Source: an uncultured Bacteroidaceae bacterium (GTDB lineage Bacteria; Bacteroidota; Bacteroidia; Bacteroidales; Bacteroidaceae). Taken from it: a stretch of DNA of 64,000 nucleotides. The stretch lies in contig CAJOCU010000013.1 of NCBI GenBank assembly GCA_905233765.1, positions 35,237 through 99,236 of the forward strand, given 5' to 3'. Below the pieces are notes generated by a model. The model ran no database searches. It saw nothing but the letters and a program-made list of their open reading frames with translations, and was not told the DNA's origin. Shown in pieces: positions 15,250 to 17,365 of the stretch. Each line of letters starts with the position of its first letter. The stretch's first letter is position 1. Position numbers and translations under genes: made by a program.

Positions 15250-15375
15250 GGGAATAATTTATTATGGGATGCAAGAAAAACCTGCATTTTTTGCATCGCA
15301 GGCCTCAAAATCAAATGGATAATGTCATGAAATTCTAAAATGCAAAAAAATATTTCACCTTCACATCATGACGAT

Positions 15376-15437
15376 AATCTATTGTATAACTGACCGTTAT
15401 AGCGTGAAGCTTACTATCAAAAGCTTCACAATAGATT
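15376..15437. repeat. Bulged hairpin linking AATCTATTGT and GTGAAGCTT arms
   Basis: AATCTATTGT (15376-15385) is complementary to ACAATAGATT (15428-15437), and inside it GTGAAGCTT (15404-15412) is complementary to AAGCTTCAC (15421-15429). The 3' half carries both arms as one uninterrupted word. Confidence 0.6.
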
Positions 15438-15597
15438 CACAAAAGAGTCAAAGTGGATACGCTGAGCCGAGAAAGGGGTAAACTGGTGAAGGGCTGGTGA
15501 AAGGCTGTGAAGCTTTGTGAAGCTTCACCGATGGGGATAGGACTTCTAAACAGAAGTAAACCAGATGATTGAGAATAAAGTGTGAACGGTGAAGCTT
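15404..15597. repeat. Iteron-like cluster of GTGAAGCTT
   Basis: Five exact copies of GTGAAGCTT or its complement: 15404-15412, 15421-15429 (inverted), 15507-15515, 15517-15525 and 15589-15597. The fourth extends to a perfect palindrome GTGAAGCTTCAC (15517-15528). Related GGTGAAGGG/GGTGAAAGG words fill 15485-15505. Looks like a protein-binding or replication-type iteron set. Confidence 0.65.
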
Positions 15598-15615
15598 TTT
15601 ACGGGCAAAAAAAAT

Positions 15616-15744
15616 GAAGACCGCGGTCTTCGAGCTGTAAGAGCGTGCTCTTCGAAGCGTAAGACCGCGGTCTTATTGTTGTTCGGTCGCGACCGAACAA
15701 CGAGTTCCATGCATGGAACACGCGTTTACCACCAATGGTAAACG
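15616..15744. repeat. Array of six different short palindromes
   Basis: In order: GAAGACCGCGGTCTTC (15616-15631); AAGAGC-gt-GCTCTT (15639-15652); TAAGACCGCGGTCTTA (15660-15675); a perfect 24-bp palindrome centred on CGGTCGCGACCG (15678-15701); GTTCCATGCATGGAAC (15704-15719); and CGTTTACCA-ccaa-TGGTAAACG (15723-15744). Spacers are 2-7 bp. Copies 1 and 3 share a core; the others are unrelated in sequence. The array ends about 130 bp before the transposase promoter. Confidence 0.8.
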
Positions 15745-15875
15745 GCAACACACTACACTGTATTTGCGTTTTCAATGCAGGGTGTTGGATGGATTACCAT
15801 GGAGGAAAAAACACGAATTCTGCATCTGCAATAGATTATTTCCCCTTCTTTGTGATTCAATCAAGAGATATGTTG

Positions 15876-15883
15876 TATCTTTG
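15876..15883 (+). promoter_or_regulatory. Bacteroidetes -7 box for the RAYT gene
   Basis: TATCTTTG, followed by GCGC, lies 30 bp before the ATG at 15914; TTTG at 15849 may serve as the -33 element. It shows that the open frame before 15914 is not translated from this promoter. Confidence 0.7.
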
Positions 15884-15913: not shown

Positions 15914-17365
15914 ATGGAGCAGAAGAATGACTATCACCGCATGGGCCGGCGCTGCTGGCGAAATAAATACAGCCGACCGGGCATTTACCATGTGACTATT
16001 CACGTGGATGAGGCGTTGCGGCAGCCGCTGGGGCGTATAGCCGGCGACCTCGCCATCGCCGACGGCGAGGCTGGGGCACCGCATGTGGAGCTGTCGGCCA
16101 TAGGGCGCATGGTGGAGGAGGAGCTGACAACGAGCATCACTGCGCACTACCCATTCATAGAGGTGCAAGAGCATGTGGTGATGCCGGAACACCTCCATTT
16201 CATTCTCCGCGTACATAACAGCATCATCAGCGTCAACGGCCGCGAGACGCATCTGGGACAGGTCATCGCGGGCTTCAAGAAGGGCTGCAACCGCCGCTTC
16301 TGGGAGATAATGGGAGTGCGGGGTGAACCCGCAAACGCTACGGAGAAAGGAGTGCGGGGTGAACCCGCAAGCGCTACGGGTGAAGGGAAAAGAGGGGATG
16401 CGGCAGAAGCAAGGGGAATGCGGGGTGAACCCGCAAGCGCTACGGAGAAAGGAATGCGGGGAGAAGCCGCAGGCGCAGCGGGAATGCGGGGTGAAGGAGA
16501 GGGGGAACAGGGCAGCGTGTTGCGTGTTGCGGTTCGCCCGCAAGGATCAATGGGCAATGCGGCAGCAAAAACCGATAAGCGCACCCCCTCATGGGGCACT
16601 ACGGACCGCCAGCCGCTGTTCGCTGCAGGCTATGTCGATGTGATGCCACTGTCGCAAGAGCAATTGGAAGTGCAGCGGCAATACATCCTGAACAACCCGC
16701 GCAGCCGCTTGCAGCGAATGCGCAACCGCGCCTGGCTGCAAACACAACACGCCAGCACCCCTACCGCACTCTCCATGCGCGCTCTCAGAGGCTACCTGCA
16801 GCGCGAATGCGCGCCGTCGCAGTTCAGCGATGAAATCTGGGAGCGGATTCGGCAACAGCTGCTGGATGCCAATGGGATGGTTGTCTGCGATAGCTATGGC
16901 AACCTGCAGCTGCTCAAGGACACGCTGTTGCCCGTGGTGTGCCATAGGAAGGATGCACGCTGGTTCCCTCAACAGATGCAGCGCTGCCTTGAGGCTGCTC
17001 AGGCGGGTGCTGTGCTGGTGTCGGCACGCATCGCAGGCGGGGAACAGCAGATCATGGACGAGGCGATGAGGCGAGGCTTTCCCGTAGTCCTTGTGGCTGA
17101 CAACGGGTTCCCCGAGCGCTATCACCCGTCGGCACGACAGATGGAGCAATGTGGCAATGGAACGCTGTTGCTGCTGACGCCGTGGAAGTATCACTATCGC
17201 CCTGTTGACACGCACATCACAGTGGCCGAATGCAAGACCATGAACTGCGCTGTGCAAGCGATTTGCAGACGCAAGGACGATTGGTGGCAAACTTTTGGCG
17301 ATAAGCTGGTGAGGAGGCGGGAGTGGATGGGAGCTAAAATTGAAGAGGAAAGAGAAAAAATGTAA
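15914..17365 (+). CDS. REP-associated tyrosine transposase (RAYT) with repeat linker and C-terminal extension
   Basis: HUH single-strand transposase of the IS200-like/RAYT group, 483 residues from the ATG at 15914. The frame is open back to 15713, but that lies across the promoter and palindromes. The N-terminus RPGIYHVTIHV and VVMPEHLHFILRV (His93, His95) give the HUH metal site. Tyr240 in AAGYVDVMPL is the likely nucleophile, followed by QYILNNPRSRLQRMR. Between them residues about 135-195 are 12-residue repeats of (V/M)RGEPASATEKG encoded by 36-nt hairpin repeats. The C-terminal half adds a domain with GAVLVSARIAGGEQQIMDEA and FPVVLVADNGF, resembling a DprA/LOG-type Rossmann fold, then LLLLTPWKYHY. 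RAYTs mobilise or process REP palindromes. Confidence 0.82.
   Translation: MEQKNDYHRMGRRCWRNKYSRPGIYHVTIHVDEALRQPLGRIAGDLAIADGEAGAPHVELSAIGRMVEEELTTSITAHYPFIEVQEHVVMPEHLHFILRVHNSIISVNGRETHLGQVIAGFKKGCNRRFWEIMGVRGEPANATEKGVRGEPASATGEGKRGDAAEARGMRGEPASATEKGMRGEAAGAAGMRGEGEGEQGSVLRVAVRPQGSMGNAAAKTDKRTPSWGTTDRQPLFAAGYVDVMPLSQEQLEVQRQYILNNPRSRLQRMRNRAWLQTQHASTPTALSMRALRGYLQRECAPSQFSDEIWERIRQQLLDANGMVVCDSYGNLQLLKDTLLPVVCHRKDARWFPQQMQRCLEAAQAGAVLVSARIAGGEQQIMDEAMRRGFPVVLVADNGFPERYHPSARQMEQCGNGTLLLLTPWKYHYRPVDTHITVAECKTMNCAVQAICRRKDDWWQTFGDKLVRRREWMGAKIEEEREKM
16316..16500 (+). repeat. In-frame 36-nt tandem repeats within the RAYT gene
   Basis: Full units at 16316-16351, 16352-16387 and 16418-16453, with degenerate or partial units at 16388-16417, 16454-16483 and from 16484. 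Each full unit contains a hairpin, TGCGGGGTGAACCCGCA. The partial unit at 16454 keeps a shortened stem (TGCGG...CCGCA) despite base changes. The unit encodes 12 residues, so copy number can change without a frameshift. Confidence 0.8.

Follow-up and report, generated by a model that had tools for sequence, protein, structure and literature searches.

Here we describe arrays of short palindromes that keep an exact 22-bp pitch, mix several unrelated arm families and carry a central dinucleotide typical of the genome in which they lie. The array from which this work started, a chain of six palindromes next to a RAYT gene, lies in a window of 64,000 nucleotides (the whole stretch of DNA that was analysed) from an uncultured Bacteroidaceae bacterium. 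Across the genus, 83 non-redundant arrays of up to 14 units were found in 12 genomes at a score of 15 or more. The best reading of these arrays is that they are non-autonomous, REP/BIME-like mosaics that lack the REP foot and hold strictly to a 22-nt pitch. Furthermore, we propose, with a probability of roughly 0.4, that the mostly intergenic mosaic arrays are chains of single-stranded DNA hairpins that would be recognised and processed by an HUH transposase such as the RAYT-DprA protein predicted beside the window array.

A chain of six palindromes

The sequence-only reading had placed six perfect or near-perfect palindromes in the 129 bp from 15616 to 15744, and all six were confirmed at the coordinates first given (Table 1). 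Their centres, at 15623.5, 15645.5, 15667.5, 15689.5, 15711.5 and 15733.5, are exactly 22 bp apart at each step, despite the fact that several adjoining palindromes are unrelated in sequence. The array is thus a mosaic, as had been claimed in setting this chain of distinct palindromes apart from ordinary REP arrays. A common core had been noted for the first and third palindromes only; their likeness stands, but the restriction does not, as the second belongs with them, differing by a paired C-G to G-C change (AAGAGC/GCTCTT), and palindromes 1-3 form one arm family, designated A.

The longest chain at 22 bp comprises 6 centres, compared with 2 in 20,000 dinucleotide shuffles of 15600-15760, and the count of 6 centres in this interval compares with 4, a number reached in 1 of the 20,000 shuffles. 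No longer chain of this kind occurs within the 64-kb window. Folded as single-stranded DNA, the stretch gives -44.9 kcal/mol versus -20.0 +/- 2.8 for shuffled sequences (z = -9.0).

The array lies upstream of the RAYT gene; on its other side a gene starts about 690 bp away, and no gene ends before the array. A gap of about 130 bp had been given between the array and the promoter of the RAYT gene. The distance is right provided that the TATCTTTG box, a putative Bacteroidetes promoter motif, is the promoter.

Table 1. Coordinates of the palindromic units and neighbouring features in the window
Feature	Coordinates	Strand	Sequence	Details
Longer repeat containing the array	15288..15772	none		two blocks, with 81% and 85% identity to another copy
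Unit 1	15616..15631	none	GAAGACCGCGGTCTTC	arm family A; the 22-bp unit is 15613-15634
Unit 2	15639..15652	none	AAGAGCGTGCTCTT	family A with one paired change
Unit 3	15660..15675	none	TAAGACCGCGGTCTTA	family A
Unit 4	15678..15701	none	GTTGTTCGGTCGCGACCGAACAAC	family B
Unit 5	15704..15719	none	GTTCCATGCATGGAAC	family C
Unit 6	15723..15744	none	CGTTTACCACCAATGGTAAACG	family C2; 9-bp arms, non-palindromic CCAA tip
Promoter-like box	15876..15883	+	TATCTTTG	presumed motif, before the RAYT gene
RAYT gene	15914..17365	+		483 aa; Y1 HUH transposase with DprA-like C-terminal domain, predicted from motifs and fold
In-frame repeats in the RAYT linker	16317..16471	+	TGCGGGGTGAACCCGCA	three exact, one with 2 mismatches

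The array is contained in a longer repeat, the second copy of which lies on contig C9 (L131:6614-7041) in the opposite strand. The left part of the repeat contains short repeats (GTGAAGCTT), some of them at 11-bp steps. The period-11 autocorrelation of this left part is weak (0.36), and an 11-bp periodicity of 15380-15600 was set aside as weak and not the top period in the C9 copy. Repeat-rich stretches with GTGAAGCTT or ACCTACACC motifs adjoin arrays at several places (window 15380-15600, L131:6813-7041, L133 and L137); these stretches are common to array copies and may be part of a larger element.

Other classes of sequence were also considered. At the Rfam gathering threshold, the array contains no known RNA family, and the sole match in the window is to FopS, a paralogous sRNA family of Bacteroidetes (RF04319, 1510-1581, minus strand, 76.7 bits). 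A CRISPR array was ruled out: units vary within an array and their likeness drops with lag, and no CRISPR family is among the Rfam matches of the window. A plasmid or phage origin was dropped, as blastn searches of plasmid (72,556) and phage (50,697) records returned nothing.

Arrays in the source genome and across the genus

Used as a query against its own genome, the array returned 18 matches, including itself and some that are second strands of one place. The matching stretches are mosaics of the same arm families, in combinations such as D-A(n), A(n)-B-C, A(n)-C2(n) and F-F-F-C-A-A-A-I-H(n). Among the stretches examined, the source genome (G000) has at least 19 array loci at a score of 15 or more, namely 17 non-redundant arrays plus the window array and one at L270. 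For the genus-wide set of 83, the 23 lower-scoring of 106 arrays were dropped and arrays sharing a 40-mer were counted once; the window and L270 arrays are not members of this set and hence lie outside the unit, family-mixing, context, tip, lag, chimera and homology-break statistics given below.

The exact core of family A (AAGACCNNGGTCTT) is present in 27 copies in the source genome versus 1 for the reversed control. Four or more copies occur in 11 of the 139 genus genomes (43 in G134, 36 in G132, 27 in G000, 25 in G095, 20 in G096, 16 in G098, 10 in G125, 9 each in G082 and G116, and 4 each in G030 and G059), the reversed control never rising above 3. An 18-bp core of family B, with up to 2 mismatches allowed, has 3 or more copies in 10 of the 139 genomes, with at most 1 for its control. 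Additionally, 84,980 species, each represented by a single genome, were scanned, a set from which the source genome itself may be absent; two exact A units on pitch were found in 15 stretches, which are titled uncultured Prevotellaceae or Bacteroidales MAGs. The search of related genomes for the palindromes and the array, which the sequence-only reading had proposed, recovered both cores and many arrays in some genomes of the genus.

Two variant forms were seen in the course of this survey. In G107, G018 and G017 (L084, L087, L253 and L078), a family B palindrome precedes degenerate 22-bp units whose core resembles CACATATATACGTG; L084 and L087 are also alike in their flanks by eye and may represent one ancestral locus. 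G134, a draft in which no RAYT was detectable, has copies of a short A-type element (L079, L095 and L325-L328) with inverted ends, GACACCGCGGTC...GACCACGGTGTC, and a spacing of 22 or 21.5, which looks like a small mobile repeat.

Pitch and anatomy of the units

A motif-free chain scan of 101 loci found 27 arrays at pitch 22 with a score of 17 or more, versus 0-1 arrays each at pitches 15, 17-21, 23-25, 27 and 30; the loci were mostly fetched for array or RAYT hits, so that densities are not genome averages, while the comparison between pitches is unaffected. The harmonic pitches 33 and 44 were raised in the same scan, with 15 and 13 arrays. In a viral control of 0.6 Mb, consisting of 62 stretches where AAGACCGCGGTCTT matched viral contigs, there were 2 arrays at pitch 21, whereas at pitch 22 no array reached a score of 17 and a single one reached 15. 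Distances between palindrome centres were also tallied in 1.13 Mb of fetched genus DNA. Eighty pairs lie at distance 22, of which 28 join unlike palindromes, and 47, 65 and 22 pairs lie at 33, 44 and 55; distances that are not multiples of 11 have 3-23 pairs overall and 3-17 between unlike palindromes. The corresponding distribution in the viral control DNA is flat.

Of 550 units, the 396 in which at least 4 of the 5 inner stem positions are paired were used for unit statistics. Among these, pairing at positions +-3 to +-7 of the stem stands at 84-97%, partly through that selection; the centre pair (+-1), which was not selected for, is complementary in 62% versus 28% expected. At position +-2, 75% of half-arms have C (and G opposite), so that a C-N-N-G core is common to units of all arm families. 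The GT[AG]G foot, the sequence recognised by canonical TnpA-REP enzymes, was sought 0-2 nt 5' of the stem and is present in 2 of 215 perfect-stem units. In the three valid aligned comparisons, 3 two-sided stem changes were paired in both sequences versus 1.0 expected, which is too few for a claim of compensatory change.

Mixing of arm families is common: among the 83 arrays, 44 contain at least two of the ten named families, 32 contain one and 7 none, and the same families recur in varied order across many arrays. Similarity between units falls from 0.60 at lag 1 to 0.48, 0.26, 0.16 and 0.08 at lags 2-5. Because neighbouring units are the most alike and similarity decays with lag, this pattern points to local duplication of units.

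A central dinucleotide typical of the genome

The main central dinucleotide of the palindromes, their tip when folded, is GC in G000 and in G132 (there together with AC), TA in G059, G096 and G125, AT in G082, AA/AT/CA in G095 and CA/TA in G098. There are exceptions, such as arrays with AT and TA centres in G000 and mixed centres in G082. Pairs of units from the same genome that differ in both family and array were compared, and 31.5% of 3,534 such pairs had the same centre. Permutation of the genome labels over arrays gave 16.7% on average, with a maximum of 22.0%, and 0 of 1000 permutations reached 31.5%; the test used 264 units whose two halves belong to the same named family and left phylogeny uncorrected. 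The central dinucleotide is therefore characteristic of a genome, even between arm families that are unrelated.

Six pairs of arrays whose flanks are homologous were aligned, and three of these pairs could be compared unit by unit; the window/L131 pair was left out of this set. Between G125 L228 and G132 L274, where the aligned blocks are 88.7% and 95.3% identical, position +-1 differs at a frequency of 0.86 versus 0.07-0.29 for positions +-3 to +-8, and +-2 (0.50) and +-10 (0.64) are also much changed. Between G082 L342 and G132 L090, the centre differs at 0.62 and positions +-3 to +-8 at 0-0.12. In the third pair, G000 L135 versus G132 L203, with 3 units, the largest change is at +-11 (0.67) and the centre differs at 0.50.

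The RAYT gene

The gene next to the window array had been called a REP-type transposase, and this is borne out at the level of a Y1 HUH motif, a weak family match and a predicted fold. H93, H95 and Y257 are invariant in 21 diverse sequences. The NCBIfam model REP_Tyr_transpos matches with 21.1 bits (E = 0.00023), below its curated cut-off of 80 bits, and no Pfam family matches the 483-aa product above its cut-off. In the AlphaFold2 model (mean pLDDT 75, pTM 0.62), a Y1-like core is split by a low-confidence linker, residues 138-228. Foldseek matched the DprA-type domain to ShosA (E 2e-5) and DprA (E 5e-4), and from rank 5 onward returned the TnpA proteins of ISDra2 and IS608, with TM scores of 0.45-0.55 by target length and E values of 0.0035 or weaker. 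By sequence, DprA is matched at residues 323-434 with E 0.61. From the motifs and this model, the RAYT product is predicted to be a Y1 HUH core fused to a DprA-like domain. No paper on a fusion of DprA with a REP-associated transposase was found in the open-access papers searched. Both parts of the RAYT query match paralogues in many genomes of the genus.

The TGCGGGGTGAACCCGCA repeats in the linker, which are palindromic, were considered as the dispersed REP of the RAYT itself. This was rejected: the 4 matches are all in the gene, and none occurs elsewhere in the genome with up to 2 mismatches. Palindromes in mid-gene were also seen by eye in some RAYT relatives. In addition, a RAYT locus of G115 (L126) has four GTATTCTTCGACCAGGTCGAAGAATAC-type palindromes that flank the match or lie within it, an arrangement nearer to an ordinary REPtron.

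Association of arrays with RAYT genes

Each of the 3 RAYT genes found in the source genome lies within 2 kb of an array, and for two of these genes the distance is under 300 bp. The sequence-only reading had inferred a link between palindromes and transposase and proposed co-occurrence of arrays with this RAYT family as its test; the outcome is divided. Array-bearing genomes have more RAYT matches than the others (mean 6.9 vs 3.2 per genome, 17 vs 122 genomes, one-sided p = 0.0005); in this comparison RAYT matches were counted as HSPs, genomes were classed as array-bearing by a threshold chosen afterwards (4 A or 3 B copies), and phylogeny is uncorrected. Presence of RAYT, in contrast, is found in 14 of 17 array-bearing genomes versus 77 of 122 others (p = 0.095). 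Proximity was not significant either: an array lies within 500 bp of 7 of 58 RAYT loci, which come from 11 of the 17 array-bearing genomes, versus 17 of 243 control genes in the same loci (p = 0.155), and Fisher tests of RAYT against other genes in these loci gave p values of 0.11-0.37 overall. An apparent 6-fold excess of arrays near RAYT per kb was dropped, since it falls below 2-fold per intergenic kb when the arrays at L217 and in the window, placed inside an ORF by an overrunning ORF call, are counted as near RAYT.

Searches outward from RAYT were also made. No array of families A-D was seen by eye beside the genus RAYT relatives with short flanks (L102-L130), and palindromes within 1.5 kb of RAYT relatives showed nothing consistent. 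None of 24 RAYT loci from a family-wide search, 21 of them in other genera, showed an array, the one hit at a score of 15 or more being a plain tandem repeat by eye. Palindromes in genomes lacking the transposase had been named beforehand as evidence against the link, and three such drafts were found: a 21-sequence profile detected no RAYT in G134, G116 and G059, which carry 43, 9 and 4 exact A palindromes, respectively. These drafts are 78-85% complete, and the finding leans against a strict dependence of arrays on RAYT. Taken together, a link between RAYT and the arrays is no more than plausible.

A proposed hairpin reader and the alternatives to it

The arms of the units change yet stay complementary, the pitch is fixed and the tip is shared genome-wide, and for these reasons we favour a trans-acting reader of hairpin shape and tip. 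Y1 HUH transposases (IS608, ISDra2, TnpA-REP) read hairpins as single-stranded DNA and are therefore natural candidates for this role. In the mechanism we propose, the hairpins would act as single-stranded DNA and the reader, putatively of the RAYT-DprA family, would sense their geometry and the tip dinucleotide. Under such a reader the arms would be free to drift together and arrays could gain or lose whole 22-nt units, while the enzyme would hold the pitch and the species-specific tip as the arms diverge. A more specific version, in which a single-stranded DNA enzyme, likely RAYT-DprA, builds and edits the 22-nt hairpin chains, accepting nearly any arms and only its own tip, such that the tips of all families would change together, is on balance doubtful. 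Together, the complementary arms, the pitch and the tip point to a shape-plus-tip reader in preference to slippage alone, a one-strand RNA function or a sequence-specific dimer.

The arrays could instead be neutral minisatellites, in which slippage multiplies 22-bp units and template switching at forks keeps them palindromic, with no dedicated enzyme. The decay of similarity with lag is what such a process would leave, as is the drift of the pitch to 21.5-23 in G134 and G116 (it stays at 22 in G059). One gap between aligned arrays, that separating G125 L228 from G132 L274, is exactly 22 nt, although others, such as the 26 nt in L135/L203, are not multiples of 22. Slippage would not, however, give unlike arm families a common centre across the arrays of a genome, at a level that none of 1000 permutations reached, nor does it provide for a concerted switch of the centre between species or for the same arm families in different orders in many arrays, and we regard this account as unlikely.

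A second alternative is that the DNA pattern only serves the transcript: RNA hairpins clustered at the 3' ends of genes would act in transcription termination or in the protection of mRNA ends. Among 46 arrays with callable neighbours, 19 lie between codirectional, 13 between convergent and 8 between divergent genes, with 6 inside an ORF, so that 40 of 46 are not within an ORF. Closeness to gene 3' ends speaks for this account and is counted for the REP-like reading as well: 22 of 49 facing 3' ends are within 50 bp of an array, versus 3 of 33 facing 5' ends, in 46 arrays, 37 of the 83 having been skipped for short flanks or ORF overlap. Furthermore, the window array folds as RNA with z = -8.0, a T run follows its outer unit on the minus strand, and terminators are reported to include clustered hairpins that lie within 80 bases of a stop codon (PMC8355165). 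On the other hand, selection on one RNA strand should favour G-U pairs, whereas A-C and G-T mismatches are near equal in number (96 and 81, both strands alike) and no strand-specific G-U wobble was seen in the array units. Moreover, the exact pitch and the genome-typical tip are left unexplained, and the window array itself lies upstream of RAYT and about 690 bp from the start of the other gene. This explanation therefore also seems rather unlikely.

Some further features of the surroundings were recorded. Ten flanking proteins are of mixed kinds, including glycoside hydrolases, a capsule-type kinase, ResB and an outer-membrane protein, 5 of the 10 being without a Pfam match at 1e-8, and no common partner gene was seen among them. 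In G132, a four-unit array (L090:1475-1562) lies inside an open sulfatase-family gene (PF00884, residues 296-579), where it precedes the Sulfatase domain, and the aligned G082 DNA (L342) has an array at the same place. Comparison of L230 with L199, in which the G125 RAYT adjoins an array and G132 has an array with the same right flank and another left flank, suggests that arrays can sit at rearrangement borders.

The units might also be dyad sites for a dimeric DNA-binding protein with a 22-bp footprint that reads the central CNNG, in line with the dense dimeric operators that the sequence-only reading had listed among its options. The dyads do fit: perfect palindromes are also compatible with double-stranded DNA dyads, the core is common to all families and the genome-typical centre is palindromic in 62%. 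The diversity of the arms does not, as positions +-3 to +-7 are complementary yet unrelated between families, a constraint that a reader of sequence could do without. Some tips, CCAA and CCTA among them, lack palindromic symmetry, and 22 bp is not two helical turns of DNA at 10.5 bp each; this makes dimer sites improbable.

An array that collects hairpins by recombination had been suggested as well and is possible, in view of the 10 chimeric A/H units found. Site-specific recombination at unit centres, where the central dinucleotide would be the crossover and sites of the same centre would swap half-arms, could account for the genome-typical centre and for chimeric units with intact halves joined at the centre (10 A/H and 3 F/G). 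Such a crossover at the centre is very improbable, in that homology breaks between arrays fall mostly at palindrome edges (phases 3-4 and 18) and least near centres, a statistic that mostly reflects shared palindromes with differing linkers, and that to our knowledge no recombinase fits arms so diverse. Crossover at the centre was accordingly rejected as the main engine of mixing.

Comparison with known systems

No paper describing 22-bp palindrome arrays in Bacteroidales was found in the open-access papers searched. The arrays resemble the REP, BIME and REPIN elements of REPtrons with their TnpA-REP (RAYT) genes in that they are short palindromes, mostly intergenic, clustered and present in many copies, often near gene 3' ends, with a Y1 HUH gene beside some and several families per genome. 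Unlike REPs, they have no GT[AG]G foot, and unlike REPs and BIMEs they combine an exact 22-bp pitch with several unrelated palindromes per array and a genome-typical tip. BIMEs and REPINs pair one REP type in alternating orientation, whereas more than half of the arrays here mix families and perfect palindromes have no orientation. In contrast to REPtrons, the co-location with RAYT is not significant. Since the GT[AG]G foot is nearly absent and the arrays are not organised around a single REP type, we did not file them as REPs. Mosaic elements of the BOX/NIME type are likewise modular, being built from several repeat types in partly fixed order, but their modules are longer and are not known to keep a 22-bp hairpin pitch.

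Among described transposases, the nearest by description is the TnpA-REP subclass 2.6, or RAYT group 5, of Bacteroidetes, whose genes have atypical secondary structures on their flanks, with further copies at other places in the genome, according to the passages of PMC6006769 considered here, in which IS608, ISDra2 and TnpA-REP are also named. The RAYT studied here is similarly an HUH protein of Bacteroidetes. Those passages differ from our findings in having no array, pitch or tip rule, and a search for the term DprA in the main text of that source gave nothing. Another Bacteroidetes repeat, the BrickBuilt MITE/minisatellite of Porphyromonas gingivalis, forms dispersed, intergenic arrays of short tandem units like those described here, with units of 23 nt and 19 loci in one strain, as given in the portion of PMC4596501 considered. 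Its units are, in the same portion, imperfect direct repeats of one consensus, AGAYCATARTATCCTCTCRTRTG, which is not a palindrome, and they sit in a MITE-like element with a leader, a tail and IS5-type terminal repeats (PMC4596501). Unlike in such an element, the units of the present arrays are not one sequence.

If one enzyme reads the tip for all arm families, the arrays would offer a direct view of the co-evolution of REP-like elements with their transposase, which is usually studied with a single REP sequence per enzyme. Also, the fixed 22-nt pitch across unrelated hairpins is an unusual feature that assays of cleavage or binding could exploit quantitatively. The DprA fold is known from natural transformation and ShosA from phage defence, and an HUH-DprA fusion would link a DNA-processing nuclease to the former and, through ShosA, to the latter. 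Of the kinds of element compared, REP/BIME elements are the closest, and we regard the arrays as dispersed palindromic mosaic elements of a new variety.
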